From Glutamicibacter uratoxydans (GTDB taxonomy: Bacteria; Actinomycetota; Actinomycetes; Actinomycetales; Micrococcaceae), in contig NZ_BJNY01000004.1 in assembly GCF_006539925.1 (NCBI RefSeq), positions 124,001 to 188,000 on the forward strand: DNA of 64,000 nucleotides. The letters are read 5' to 3'. The position numbers and the translations under genes were made by a program. Under the pieces are notes generated by a model, which had not been told where the DNA came from, ran no database searches, and worked only from the letters and a program-made list of their open reading frames with translations. Below are positions 1,458-6,460 of the stretch, in pieces (within the stretch, counting starts at the first letter, position 1; every line of letters starts with the position of its first letter).

Positions 1458-3085
1458 TGGCGAAGAACAAGCGAAACGCCAAGAACGCGGGGGATGCCCC
1501 GGCGCTTGGCTTCGTCGGATCCATGCGGTGGATCTGGACGCAGCTGACGTCGATGCCTACCGCGCTGTTCCTGCTGCTGCTGCTGGCAGTCGCCGCGGTG
1601 CCGGGCTCGATCTTCCCGCAGCGTTCGGCGAATCCCGAGGTTGTCGTCCAGTACCTGGAACAGCATCCGGTGGCAGGCCCTTGGCTTGATAAGTTCCAGA
1701 TGTTCGAGGTGTACTCTTCGGTCTGGTTCTCCGCGATCTACCTGCTGCTGTTCATTTCCCTGGTTGGCTGCATCCTGCCGCGCATCAAAAAACATGCCAA
1801 GGCGCTGCGCACTCCGCCGCCGCGCACCCCAGCCAAGATGCAGCGTCTGCCGCAGTACACTTCGCTGGAAATCATCGAGGGCGAATCCGACACCCCGGAT
1901 GACGACCAGGTCATCGAGGATACTTACAAGATCCTGAAGAAGCGCGGCTACCGGGTGGAGCGCCGCAAGGATGCCACCGGCCGCTCGGTTGCTGCTGAAC
2001 GCGGCTACATCAGGGAAATCGGCAACATCCTCTTCCACGTTTCGCTGCTGGGTGTGCTCGCCGCCGCAGGTATCGGACAGTCCTTCGGCTACGGGGGCCA
2101 GCGCGTTCTGGTTGAGGGGGAGACCTTCGTCAATTCCCTGGTTGCCTACGATTCGTTCACTCCGGGCTCCAGCTTCTCCGCCGATGACCTGCCAGGCTAC
2201 TCGGTGAAGCTGGATAAGTTTGACATCGTCTTCGACCGCGAGTCCAAGGACTACTTCGGCCAGCCGATCGACTTCACTGCACACGTACAGGTTCGAAAAG
2301 ACGCCGATTCCCAGCCGGTCGAAGAGGAGCTGAAGGTCAACAAGCCGCTGCGCATCAATGGTGCCGACGTCTACCTCGTAGGCAACGGCTACGCTCCAGT
2401 GGTCACTGTGCGTGACGGCAAGGGAAATATCTCCTACTCCGGTCCGCTGGTATCCGTGCCTCAGGACTCGGTGTACACCTCGCTGATGGTGCTCAAGGTG
2501 CCTGATGCATCGCCCGAGCAGCTGGGCTTCCAAGGATTCCTGCTGCCCACCGCAGTGATCGGTGAGGACAACATTTCCCGCTCGGCGGACCCCAATGCCA
2601 TCAACCCGCTGTTGCAGCTCAACTCCTTCTACGGAGACCTCGGACTGGATTCCGGCAACCCGCAGAACGTCTACGTCTTGGATACCGACAAGATGAAGGA
2701 GCTGAACAACCGGAACCTGAAGGCTGGCGGTATCTCGCTGGCTGCTGGGGAAACCTACGAGCTGCCGAACAACCTCGGCAGCATCACCTTCGACGATCTG
2801 AAACGCTACGTCGCACTGGATGTCAATTATGATCCAGGAAAACTTCCGATCGCGATCTTCGCAGGTCTAGCATTGCTTGGCCTGATCGTTTCGATGTTCA
2901 CCCCACGCCGCCGCGTATGGGTCAAGCTGATCAACGAAGACGGCAAGCGTAAGATCGAATATGCGCTCCTAGCCCGAGGCGAAGACCCCCGTCTAGAACG
3001 TGAAGCCGTCGAATTACAGAAAATCTTTGACAAGGCCTGGCCGCTAGCCAGCCAGGAACAGGATCTAGGAGCCGTAAATGGGTAG
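1457..3085 (+). CDS. resB: Cytochrome c biogenesis protein ResB
   Basis: A 542-residue member of the ResB/Ccs1 family, one half of the system II haem export and cytochrome c synthetase complex. Three hydrophobic segments lie near the N-terminus (about residues 36-56, 92-112 and 190-210), followed by a large extracytoplasmic domain (about 215-455) and a last transmembrane helix (about 460-480, IAIFAGLALLGLIVSMF). A charged cytoplasmic tail follows. The ATG overlaps the ccdA stop and the 3' end overlaps ccsB by 8 bp, so the genes form one operon. The length and order are typical for actinobacteria. Confidence 0.95.
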   Translation: MAKNKRNAKNAGDAPALGFVGSMRWIWTQLTSMPTALFLLLLLAVAAVPGSIFPQRSANPEVVVQYLEQHPVAGPWLDKFQMFEVYSSVWFSAIYLLLFISLVGCILPRIKKHAKALRTPPPRTPAKMQRLPQYTSLEIIEGESDTPDDDQVIEDTYKILKKRGYRVERRKDATGRSVAAERGYIREIGNILFHVSLLGVLAAAGIGQSFGYGGQRVLVEGETFVNSLVAYDSFTPGSSFSADDLPGYSVKLDKFDIVFDRESKDYFGQPIDFTAHVQVRKDADSQPVEEELKVNKPLRINGADVYLVGNGYAPVVTVRDGKGNISYSGPLVSVPQDSVYTSLMVLKVPDASPEQLGFQGFLLPTAVIGEDNISRSADPNAINPLLQLNSFYGDLGLDSGNPQNVYVLDTDKMKELNNRNLKAGGISLAAGETYELPNNLGSITFDDLKRYVALDVNYDPGKLPIAIFAGLALLGLIVSMFTPRRRVWVKLINEDGKRKIEYALLARGEDPRLEREAVELQKIFDKAWPLASQEQDLGAVNG

Positions 3086-4148
3086 TAACGCAGGCGCGTT
3101 GGAGCCGATCAACGAAACACTGGGAATGTACAGCCAGCTGTTTATGCTGCTGGCAGCCATGGCATATGTTGTGGTGTTCGTATTCTTCGCCTTGGATTTG
3201 GCCAAGTCGAACAAGACCATTGCCGAGATGGACGCAGCGGCTCTCAAAGAAGATGAGAAACTGTTGGTTGGAGCCGGGGTAGGCTCTGTCTCGAAGATGG
3301 GCCGCGGACGTCGTGGCGAAGAAGTTCGTCCGGACCGTGTCAGCGAAGACATCGTCTCCGACAAGATGAACTATACGAAGCTGTCGGCAAACCGTCCGAT
3401 GGCTCGCATCGCGGTCGCCCTGATGTGGCTTGCGATGCTGCTGCACGGTTTCGCAGTGGTCTCTCGCGCATTCGCGGCCCACCGTGTGCCGTGGGGCAAC
3501 ATGTACGAGTTCATGACCACCGGCGCACTGGTTGTTTCTGTCGTGTACCTTGTGGTGCTGTTCTTCAAGGATCTGCGGTTCGTCGGCAGCTTCATCTCAG
3601 GCCTTGTTACCCTGATGCTTTGCAGTGCCACCATCGGTTTCCCAACTCCAGTTGGCCACCTGGTGCCAGCGCTGCAGTCGCCATGGATCGTCATCCACGT
3701 ATCCATTGCAGTGGCTGCTTCAGCCTTGTTCGCGATTTCCTTTGCCATGAATGTGCTGCAGCTCATCCAGCATGCACGTATGAAGCGAATCGCGACCGGC
3801 CAGCAGGACAAGCTGCCTTTCATGCGTCTGGTACCTGGTGCCGGCGCCCTAGAGAACTTCGCCTACCGCATCAACACCATCAGCTTCGTTATGTGGACCT
3901 TCACCGTGATTGCGGGTGCAATCTGGGCAGAAGCCGCATGGGGACGCTACTGGGGCTGGGATCCAAAGGAAGTCTGGTCGTTCGTGATCTGGGTCGTCTA
4001 CGCAGGCTACCTGCACGCCCGCGCAACAGGTGGCTGGACAGGCCCACGTTCCGCCTGGTTGTCCATCATTGGCTTCCTCTGCGTGGTCTTCAACTTCACT
4101 ATCGTGAACATCTTCTTCAACGGCCTGCATTCCTACGCAGGCGTGTAG
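3078..4148 (+). CDS. ccsB: Cytochrome c biogenesis protein CcsB/CcsA (haem exporter)
   Basis: A 356-residue polytopic membrane protein that partners ResB in haem delivery and thioether ligation. The tryptophan-rich WWD-type signature is at residues 288-298 (WGRYWGWDPKE), with conserved flanking histidines (H123, H208 and one near 315). An N-terminal helix is followed by a charged cytoplasmic loop (about residues 40-105) and then about seven more helices. The ATG lies within the last codons of resB. It is the last gene of the operon and is closed by a strong hairpin at 4168-4205. Confidence 0.94.
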   Translation: MGSNAGALEPINETLGMYSQLFMLLAAMAYVVVFVFFALDLAKSNKTIAEMDAAALKEDEKLLVGAGVGSVSKMGRGRRGEEVRPDRVSEDIVSDKMNYTKLSANRPMARIAVALMWLAMLLHGFAVVSRAFAAHRVPWGNMYEFMTTGALVVSVVYLVVLFFKDLRFVGSFISGLVTLMLCSATIGFPTPVGHLVPALQSPWIVIHVSIAVAASALFAISFAMNVLQLIQHARMKRIATGQQDKLPFMRLVPGAGALENFAYRINTISFVMWTFTVIAGAIWAEAAWGRYWGWDPKEVWSFVIWVVYAGYLHARATGGWTGPRSAWLSIIGFLCVVFNFTIVNIFFNGLHSYAGV

Positions 4149-4167
4149 AACCGAAGCAAGAAACACT

Positions 4168-4205
4168 ATGACAAGAGCCCAACCGAAAGGTTGGGCTCTT
4201 GTCAT
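4168..4205 (+). terminator. Intrinsic terminator after the ccs operon
   Basis: A perfect 17-bp stem (4168-4184 with 4189-4205) closed by a GAAA tetraloop. The 3' T-run is weak, as is usual in this window. It closes the tlpA-ccdA-resB-ccsB operon and may also stop transcription arriving from the minus-strand DUF222 gene through the repeat array. Confidence 0.85.
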
Positions 4206-4240
4206 TGTTAGTGGGATTGCTTTTGACGCTGGGCATCGGA

Positions 4241-4750
4241 ATGAACAGAAAAATCGTTCATTTCTGGTCTGCGAGTGACTTTGTCAGTTTTACGAAGCCT
4301 CTGAATCGGTGAAGCCCATTTCGGCAAACCCGAGCCTTGGGCGACGAGCAGAGAGACTGAAATGAACGAAAAAAGCGTTCACTGGCGATCTTGGACAGAG
4401 TTTGCCAATACCCAAGCTGACAGAGGGTGGGGGAAACGGCCAGAATGTGTCGCCCGGCAGTACAAGCCTTTGGACAACAATGAACGATAAAATCGTTCAC
4501 TGTAAATCTGGGATGGACTCTTGCTCAGTTTTTGAAGCACTCAGACAGCCGATCCCTAGAGAACACTGCGCAAAGGCATGAGGGACAACAAGAAGCCGAT
4601 GAAAGTGAACGAAAATTTCTTTCACTAGTAATTCTGGGACGCTTGCGCCTGCCAACAGCAACTTTTGTACGCGGTAGGGGAAGAGACACGAGCGCAGCTG
4701 GCTATGGGACGGTGAAAGCCCATTAAGAATGAACAGAAAAATCGCTCACT
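4241..4750. repeat. Array of five ~120-bp repeats, each headed by a ~20-bp palindrome
   Basis: Five copies of a palindrome begin at 4241, 4362, 4480, 4604 and 4729, at intervals of 118-125 bp. The best copy, at 4481-4499, is TGAACGATAAAATCGTTCA, with 8-bp arms and an AAA loop. The other copies keep the TGAAC and GTTCA (or GCTCA/TTTCA) arms around an A-rich centre. The sequence after each palindrome is also related: unit 1 (4277-4298) and unit 3 (4516-4538) share a GACT-TTG-TCAGTTTT-GAAGC block at the same +36 offset, and CGGTGAAGCCCATT at 4307-4320 recurs with one extra A at 4710-4724. No credible open reading frame was found. The array fills the 3' flank of the DUF222-HNH gene. Confidence 0.85.
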
Positions 4751-4825
4751 GGCTTGCGTGAGGGTTTCTGGGCTCTGTGATGAGAGTAGTTGAAACCGTC
4801 GGGGATGGTCGTCTCTGGGCGGCAG

Positions 4826-6460
4826 CTATTCGCCGACAAAATATAGGTTGGGCCCGTCAATGCGGTCCTCGTCATCAATTCCCAAGAGCCACTGCAAGTG
4901 ACGGGTGATTTCCATCCGCGGACGTTCTGGAGTCTTGCTGGCTACACAGTCGAAGTTCTGGATGCTCATAACCGAACCTGGGACTTCTACACAGGTCTGG
5001 CCCATCGGCGAGTACCACGTTGCTGCTCCATCCGGCGTGTACCGGTAGTTCCAGCCCAGAGCATGCTTGAACATCTGATGCTGCTTGCACAGCAGCTTCA
5101 TGTTCTTACGGTTCGTCGACCCGCCTTTGGCCCAGTCGTCGATGTGGTCTGCTTCTGAATGCTCCGGACTCCGGTTGCATCCGGGAAATTGGCAGCACTG
5201 GTCGCGGTAACGCAGAAGGTCCCGCATGGCCTGTGGCGGGCGGTACTTGCTGCGTTCTACGTCGATAACCGCTCCAGTCCAAGGATCTGTGAGCACTCGC
5301 AGCATGGATGGGGCGTCTGCGGCAAGTTTGAGGGCCACGCCCATGGGAATTGGCCCGTAGCCTTCCAACTCTGCCAACCCCTTCTTTTTGTCGGCGAGCA
5401 GCTCTATAGCGGGAATTGTGACGGCCACTTTCGTGTGCAGCGTGCTTCCGCCCCCTGCCGGCCATCCATCGATAAGTGCGTCGCGGAGAGAGTCAAAGCG
5501 CAGCTGGTCGGCAGTGCGGCGTGCGTCGGCTGGCTGTTCTTTCTCCAGTGTGCTGAGGTCTTTGAGATGGTGGTTCAACGTGTTCATGACAGCGATGAGA
5601 TCAGGAGCAGGACCGCGCATCAGTATGGCTGCCATCCCGTTCTTTTCGGCCCAATAGGAGACCTTGCGGTCTTTGGCGCTCTTACGGTGGCGTTCTTCCA
5701 AGCTGGTGGGGTGCAGTTTTTCGCGAAGACGGCGAGCTCGCTGGGCAATCGCAGTGTCGGTGATATGCGCCTTGGCTGCAGGCAACAGCTGATGTTCCAT
5801 GCGCGCCATGTCTTGTTCGTCAAGGCCACGGGTGTACTTGACGATGTTCGAGGCCGCTTTGCTGGTGATGATACCGCTTGCCAAGGCATCCAAGGTATTC
5901 GGCAGAAGATGCCGCAGGGTTTCGGCCTCGGCAAGCCGGGAGAAAGTATGCGAAGTAGTTTCCCGGGTTGCCAAGGCAGCTTCGGCGACGAACGAGGTGC
6001 GAGCGGTGTTCGCGTCGTCGGTATTGATGCGGTAGAAAAATTCGCTGACATTGGTCAGCCAGTCCGCTTCGCTCATGCCCTGGGCGAGTGCTTCTTCCTT
6101 GGTGAGCGCGCCGGGTTCGTCGATCCGTGCGTTGTCGGAGCGGACTGCTGCTTCCGCACGGCACAAGTATTCGAAGGAATCTGCCATGAGCACAGATTCA
6201 GAGGCATCAATCATGGAACGCAGCCGGCTGATGAGCGCTAGACGGGTGAGGCCAGTTGCGGGGTCCAAGGAGGGAGTGATGCCGGCAAGTTCCTCAACGG
6301 TGTCCTTGAGCCGGGAAAAATAGAGGTCTTGGGTGAGGGCGGAACCCCAATCGCCGTCATTGCCGGCGGTATTGCGCTGTCCCGGTGTAGGGCCGGGCAG
6401 AAGGTTGGGATTCAGCGGTTCATCATCGTCGCTGTCGGGGTGATATCTGTTGTATGCCAT
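4826..6460 (-). CDS. DUF222 domain HNH endonuclease-like protein (13E12 repeat family)
   Basis: A 544-residue protein with an actinobacterial DUF222 domain (about residues 60-370) and a C-terminal HNH nuclease domain. The HNH part is intact by eye: CQFPGC, then the core A437-D-H439-I, an asparagine in NRKNMKLLCKQH, and zinc-type cysteine/histidine pairs. The family is multicopy and mobile-looking in many actinobacteria, and its function is not established. It is a lone gene, convergent with the ccs operon. Base composition is lower in GC than its neighbours, which fits a mobile history. The array at 4241-4750 lies directly in its 3' region. Confidence 0.88.
   Translation of the reverse strand: MAYNRYHPDSDDDEPLNPNLLPGPTPGQRNTAGNDGDWGSALTQDLYFSRLKDTVEELAGITPSLDPATGLTRLALISRLRSMIDASESVLMADSFEYLCRAEAAVRSDNARIDEPGALTKEEALAQGMSEADWLTNVSEFFYRINTDDANTARTSFVAEAALATRETTSHTFSRLAEAETLRHLLPNTLDALASGIITSKAASNIVKYTRGLDEQDMARMEHQLLPAAKAHITDTAIAQRARRLREKLHPTSLEERHRKSAKDRKVSYWAEKNGMAAILMRGPAPDLIAVMNTLNHHLKDLSTLEKEQPADARRTADQLRFDSLRDALIDGWPAGGGSTLHTKVAVTIPAIELLADKKKGLAELEGYGPIPMGVALKLAADAPSMLRVLTDPWTGAVIDVERSKYRPPQAMRDLLRYRDQCCQFPGCNRSPEHSEADHIDDWAKGGSTNRKNMKLLCKQHQMFKHALGWNYRYTPDGAATWYSPMGQTCVEVPGSVMSIQNFDCVASKTPERPRMEITRHLQWLLGIDDEDRIDGPNLYFVGE

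Follow-up and report, generated by a model that had tools for sequence, protein, structure and literature searches.

The window analysed here is a 64-kb stretch of Glutamicibacter uratoxydans DNA, taken from the genome denoted G000 and compared with 17 further Glutamicibacter genomes (the congeners). Near its left end, an array of short palindromes lies 3' of a gene encoding a DUF222-HNH protein (gene 1), and the next gene after gene 1 is PLDc_N-like. The names ccsB, ilvD, FAH, gluQ, SRP RNA, dnaE2 and PLDc_N, as used throughout, were read from the sequence and are not the results of family searches. The features of the locus are:

4165..4208, + strand: hairpin terminator after the upstream gene (ccsB), the left border of the array region
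4242..4260: palindrome 1, TGAACAGAAAAATCGTTCA, which reads TGAACGATTTTTCTGTTCA on the gene strand
4363..4381: palindrome 2, TGAACGAAAAAAGCGTTCA
4481..4499: palindrome 3, TGAACGATAAAATCGTTCA
4606..4624: palindrome 4, TGAACGAAAATTTCTTTCA, 1 mismatch
4730..4748: palindrome 5, TGAACAGAAAAATCGCTCA, 1 mismatch, the copy closest to gene 1
4261..4825: spacers of 77-106 bp that separate the palindromes and follow the last, with weak mutual similarity
4826..6460, - strand: gene 1, the DUF222-HNH gene, 544 aa, Pfam match
5063..5203, - strand: HNH segment of gene 1, CQFPGC...DHIDDWAKGG...N...LCKQH

The array consists of five 19-bp palindromes of the form TGAAC-N9-GTTCA with at most one mismatch (4242-4748), spaced 121, 118, 125 and 124 bp apart. 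This pattern, at the same mismatch limit, has six matches in the window, five of which are the array copies; shuffled versions of the window hold a mean of 1.25 matches and reached six in 1 of 100 shuffles. For the 615-bp array stretch, 1 of 300 dinucleotide shuffles gives at least three copies of any one 5-bp-arm palindrome. The periodic array described in the earlier note is therefore confirmed, as is its position between the terminator (4165-4208) and the stop of the DUF222-HNH gene (4826). A CRISPR reading, already set aside in that note, is disfavoured by units of 118-125 bp, degenerate palindromes and spacers that are either partly duplicated or unrelated. Searching with the array DNA by blastn found no copies in the 17 congeners, the plasmid collection or the phage collection.

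The sequence between the palindromes had also been described as related, and this was borne out. The window spacers are more alike than shuffles of them (z = 3.5, 0/300), chiefly in units 1 and 3, where a 13-nt block at 4279/4520 is 85% identical, and they are probably decayed tandem duplications. A signal of tandem duplication is seen in three of eight arrays, namely L074 (z = 23), L168 (z = 8.8) and the window, and the spacers of the other five have no mutual similarity. Arrays of this kind grow partly by tandem duplication.

Gene 1 matches DUF222 (PF02720) at 76 bits against a gathering score of 24.4 (E = 4e-21) and HNH (PF01844) at 20.6 bits, slightly below the gathering score of 21.4; these are its only Pfam matches, and a RAYT (HUH/Y1) transposase domain is not among them. 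The HNH motif residues are largely conserved among its relatives, with E in place of D ahead of the first H in L047 and L048, the loci of genomes G010 and G009 that form one clade with gene 1 (support 100/99). A search of PDB sequences with the protein returned a single match, to the HNH domain of Cas9 (E = 0.049), and an AlphaFold model built from 10 sequences was discarded at a pLDDT of 54. DUF222-HNH genes are multicopy in Glutamicibacter, with 8-15 matches per genome when weak HNH-only matches are counted. Relatives were absent from plasmids (tblastn, E limit 1e-30) and from viral contigs, the latter searched by close-relative patterns only.

The link between array and gene extends well beyond the window. 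Palindromes are present in the 3' flank of 25 of 46 related Glutamicibacter DUF222-HNH loci, window included; the 46 passed an identity cut after removal of nine same-genome duplicates, and 30 of them matched, five only within gluQ coding sequence. The other 21 loci comprise 16 copies at the SRP locus (see below), L169 (no 3' flank), L170 and L171 (short ORFs), and L179 and L181, which are distant paralogues. Every full-length locus outside the SRP locus for which a 3' flank is available has palindromes (23/23), and at the SRP locus 2 of 18 copies have arrays. The strict pattern finds one to six copies per locus and misses some (2 and 1 of five in L047 and L048). The 5' flanks are nearly empty, with one palindrome (L062) on reading the flanks and two in the genome-wide pattern count. 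None of 26 distant DUF222 paralogues, L179 and L181 again included, has a palindrome in 900 bp of 3' flank. In another genus of the family, none was found at 14 orthologues, from 14 of the 15 matched genomes (G233, which has a fragment at the very start of a contig, was left out), or in five more distant outgroup flanks.

The spelling of the palindrome arms varies by lineage, with TGAAC, TGATC, TGACGG and TGACA all represented, and two paralogues within one genome, G004, retain different arms (L073 and L161). A scan for repeated 5-bp-arm palindromes, which like the search with the window palindrome only is independent of the array-derived pattern, recovered TGACG arrays in L069/L110 and L114 and a TGAAC array in L116. 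The TGAAC arms of L168 arose independently of the gene 1 lineage, and one protein column (R81) is common to L168 and gene 1 and absent from the TGAC-type rows. The same test gave no column in eight control rows, two in L163 and three in L164; no specificity residue emerged, because the single column is no better than these controls.

Gene 1, together with its array, is found in two different places, as can be seen from the differing neighbours. In G000 the gene lies behind ccsB; in G009 and G010 it is flanked by ilvD and an FAH-like gene. Five palindromes are present 3' of it in each of the three genomes. At the ccsB place, all 17 congeners have the PLDc_N-like gene within 1.5 kb of ccsB and no DUF222 match in the fetched loci, and the ilvD-FAH interval of G000 likewise has no DUF222 match.

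At the SRP/gluQ locus, 15 of the 18 DUF222 copies have no palindrome, G000 has a single copy whose TGA is the stop codon of the gene, and G009 and G010 have TGATC-type arrays. The distance from stop to SRP RNA is 69-124 bp in 16 copies, and 714 bp and 713 bp in G009 and G010, respectively. Empty and occupied places are both seen, at this locus and for gene 1; in a homing endonuclease element, the protein would cut an empty allele and be copied into it. In the other genus, too, the SRP RNA and a gluQ-like gene are immediately preceded by a DUF222-HNH gene in 14 of 14 flanks inspected by eye (L218-L231), and this placement looks old. Since these 14 orthologues share the place without an array, the array-less SRP place is probably the ancestral state. 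A TGAAC...GTTCA palindrome also occurs within gluQ coding sequence, where it reads VNEFSV (L019 at 2108; L052, L053, L054, L057, L058 and L066). In several species, its distance from the DUF222 stop at the SRP locus is about 650-670 bp, and we judge this palindrome to be a coincidence.

Copies of the palindrome are also dispersed. The window palindrome, searched with an A/T core and up to one mismatch, is found 10 times in G000, 28 times in G009 and 21 times in G010, and a control pattern not once in any of them; these are the highest counts of 395 family genomes (next 8, 8 and 7), an enrichment that is confounded by the common descent of the three. The more general pattern TGANNNAWWTTTYYNNTCA has 120 matches in the 18 genomes against 1 for its control. 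According to the earlier note, its idea would be refuted by repeats that are widespread with no such gene nearby, and in part they are, as 71 of the 120 lie elsewhere. Another 47 lie within 1.1 kb 3' of 43 DUF222-HNH genes (42 without the five gluQ coding matches) where 0.086 would be expected, an enrichment that is partly by construction as the pattern was derived from arrays, and two lie within 1.1 kb 5' of the genes. Omitting one gluQ match, 70 dispersed copies remain, or about four per genome. The 62 loci around dispersed sites contain no gene of the subfamily; in one, L095, a distant DUF222 gene lies 1.8 kb away.

The arms of the dispersed sites resemble those of the resident arrays. In G009 and G010, 26 of 26 dispersed sites are of TGA[AT]C type, and of the 32 in seven genomes whose arrays are TGACGG, 17 are of TGACGG type, two of TGA[AT]C type and 13 of neither; common descent partly confounds this match and weakens it as a test. 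In G009 and G010, hybrid sites with unlike arms (e.g. TGAACAAATTTTTTGATCA) are common, and TGAAC half-sites are found joined to TGATC ones. Several dispersed sites lie 0-50 bp past gene ends, and others are upstream of or inside genes. Some are near genes that look repair-like by eye (dnaE2-like, uvrD-like and ogt-like; L088, L103, L093, L085 and L101).

Such a distribution could also be produced by a separate lineage-specific transcription factor with the palindromes as its operators, in which case the 3' stretches of DUF222-HNH genes would be only some of its places. A factor of this kind would account for the 19-bp half-site symmetry with mostly unrelated flanks, for the hybrids, and for intergenic copies upstream of truB, an AlkA N-terminal domain (Pfam) gene and a dnaE2-like gene (named by eye). 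We nevertheless think it unlikely, as the arrays lie 3' of the gene and seldom 5', and the two G004 paralogues hold different arms.

Palindromes also cluster without the gene. Four lie at 1792-2077 of L079 in G009, two of which are kept in G010 (L099, 1990-2097), between a short-chain dehydrogenase gene and the AlkA N-terminal domain gene. Three more lie 3' of a permease-like gene in G002 (L264, 262-566). No related DUF222 gene was found in the DNA examined around the L079 and L264 clusters. Copies similar to the L264 cluster occur in G013 (L214, L267) close to contig ends (C10 and C7).

The suggestion that the palindromes are insertion sites was not upheld at the one site compared, L201/L206, where inspection by eye across the 18 genomes showed no clean 19-bp insertion. 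The next gene follows directly in G014, G015, G004 and G017 and an ORF starting ATG(AC) intervenes in most others, so the left palindrome end may derive from that start. Separately, compared with G010, G009 has a 2.3-kb insert where a gene that looks by eye like an alpha-mannosidase has its 3' end (L082, G009:C11:54000-59500, positions 1539-3832). A duplication of about 92 bp, with a palindrome in it, borders the insert on both sides, and the insert contains a 559-aa ORF without a Pfam match.

The palindromes are more strongly conserved than the DNA around them. Eight pairs of orthologous arrays were compared, the sites being marked by hand in one array per pair: identity is 399 of 418 at palindrome positions and 2231 of 2744 at the others (p = 4e-16). 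A REP-like sequence that came to lie behind these genes by chance and was duplicated in tandem neutrally, with no part for the protein, would explain the spacer similarity in three of the eight arrays (window, L168, L074). We regard this as improbable, given that palindromes are kept while spacers decay, that arrays of several arm types are found at several loci, and that close relatives at the SRP locus lack them.

The two arms also co-vary symmetrically. Among 57 distinct sites, cleaned of overlapping windows and gluQ matches, Watson-Crick pairs number 30 and 33 at the two variable positions, where permutation gives 19.8 and 12.9, and the observed counts were reached in 9 and 0 of 5000 permutations, which ignore kinship. 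A third arm position has no excess (25 pairs against 23.9 by chance). The sites read TGA...TCA with an A/T core and carry no GTAG or CGTC end tag; CGTC is found only inside TGACGG-type arms.

The sites were also considered as 3'-end signals of the upstream gene, acting as transcription roadblocks, terminators or mRNA-end hairpins. The first copy is 22-34 nt past the stop at 20 of 25 loci, which together with the dispersed sites just past gene ends fits this reading, and nine sites, either elsewhere or embedded in hairpins, form the apex of longer hairpins. Against this, 37 of the 57 distinct 19-mers fold more weakly than -3 kcal/mol and the array 19-mers, at a median of -1.6 kcal/mol, lack the stable stem of an intrinsic terminator, the nine hairpin-apex sites being exceptions. 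Repeats extend up to several hundred bp downstream, termination needs no lineage-specific arms, and the gene 1 lineage has its first copy at 78 nt (palindrome 5 of the window, gene strand) or 155 nt (L047/L048) past the stop. We therefore consider a role as 3'-end signals quite unlikely.

The earlier note had also proposed a tandem structured RNA, and an HNH protein with a 3' repeat array does bring to mind a structured or guide-like RNA transcribed together with its gene. On the gene strand, one arm position has six G-T and no A-C wobble pairs, as would be expected of RNA. Against this, another position has more A-C (22) than G-T (10); the palindrome alone is shared, with unrelated spacers in five of eight arrays; folding is weak; and Rfam searches of L111, L113 and L116 returned nothing at gathering score, that of the window sub-threshold matches only. 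An RNA array of this type is thus disfavoured, and we hold it to be very improbable. A conserved RNA unit was a further candidate and was rejected on the unrelated spacers.

Being short and symmetrical, mostly weak as RNA hairpins and mostly with unrelated flanks, the palindromes behave as constrained duplex-DNA sites. The explanation that we prefer, and to which we give about an even chance of being right, is a REPtron-like unit in which a DUF222-HNH protein stands in place of the RAYT transposase and the palindromes are its sites in duplex DNA. A subfamily of these proteins would recognise a 19-bp palindrome made up of TGA, two or three variable bases, an A/T core and TCA, and its genes would be followed by an array of the cognate palindrome with extra copies scattered in the genome. 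Speaking for it are the observed lineage-specific 3' arrays, the symmetrical changes of the arms, the stronger conservation of the sites, the two places of gene 1 with its array and the likeness of dispersed arms to resident ones. Judged from sequence, the lineage structure is best matched by the DUF222-HNH protein as candidate binder, which would probably act as a dimer; with its HNH residues largely conserved, it may nick or cut at the palindromes. Nicking or cutting could then help the array DNA to grow and spread, as has been proposed for RAYT transposases and REPs. The fuller claim, that Glutamicibacter DUF222-HNH proteins are palindrome nickases, each with a lineage-specific 19-bp spelling, which build their own 3' arrays and seed copies genome-wide, is put forward tentatively, and we think it rather less probable than not.

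Several observations count against the REPtron-like explanation. The match between dispersed and array arms and the enrichment in three genomes are both confounded by descent, no clean insertion was seen at the one dispersed site compared, no protein column tracks the TGAAC arms of L168 better than controls, and the third arm position is at chance. The orphan clusters (L079, L264), the common hybrid sites and a copy number far below that of typical REPs weigh in the same direction.

The nearest known kind of system appears to be REP/RAYT (TnpA-REP), the REPtron (PMC2817692, PMC3116915, PMC8266576, PMC3733652, as excerpted). The arrangement agrees, in that short palindromes are clustered beside one nuclease gene, repeat and protein are matched by lineage (a match partly confounded by descent in Glutamicibacter), and copies are dispersed, several of them at gene 3' ends. 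Transposase, tag and copy number do not: the Glutamicibacter protein is DUF222-HNH and not an HUH/Y1 transposase, the 19-bp repeat has an A/T core and no GTAG tag, and the arrays are 3' of the gene with about four dispersed copies per genome. REPs usually exceed 100 copies per genome, according to the excerpt of PMC2817692, and the most TGANNNAWWTTTYYNNTCA matches in one genome is 18 (G009). The Glutamicibacter unit would thus work like a REPtron, yet is not a member of REP/RAYT.

Other known systems share single features with it. The repressor of L5-like phages binds stoperators, numerous short sites scattered at the ends of genes; the Glutamicibacter sites resemble these in number and position, and differ in lying on the host chromosome, in being palindromic with lineage-specific arms, and in having an HNH protein. 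The DUF222 family includes the 13E12 repeats of mycobacteria, and in REP13E12 the gene itself is the repeat, unlike the Glutamicibacter arrays. The REP13E12/13E12 family is similar in comprising multicopy DUF222/HNH genes without known function, as described in the excerpt of PMC10589994. For palindromic repeats tagged with CGTC, which is there an end tag on an 8-9 bp stem with a 4-5 bp loop, the excerpt of PMC3733652 reports that no dedicated transposase was found. CGTC is also present in one Glutamicibacter arm type; there, it lies inside the arm of one lineage, and the neighbouring gene is DUF222-HNH. The excerpts of open-licence PMC papers returned by a literature search assigned no function to DUF222 and described no palindromic repeat linked to HNH.

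Our data suggest an undescribed partnership between an enzyme and its target repeat. If true, this would be a REP-like association of gene and repeat with an unrelated nuclease, and the paired protein lineages and differently spelled palindromes make the DNA specificity of DUF222 directly testable. Should the nickase reading also hold, it would represent an HNH-driven, non-HUH palindromic repeat system, and would give the common DUF222 family a function.
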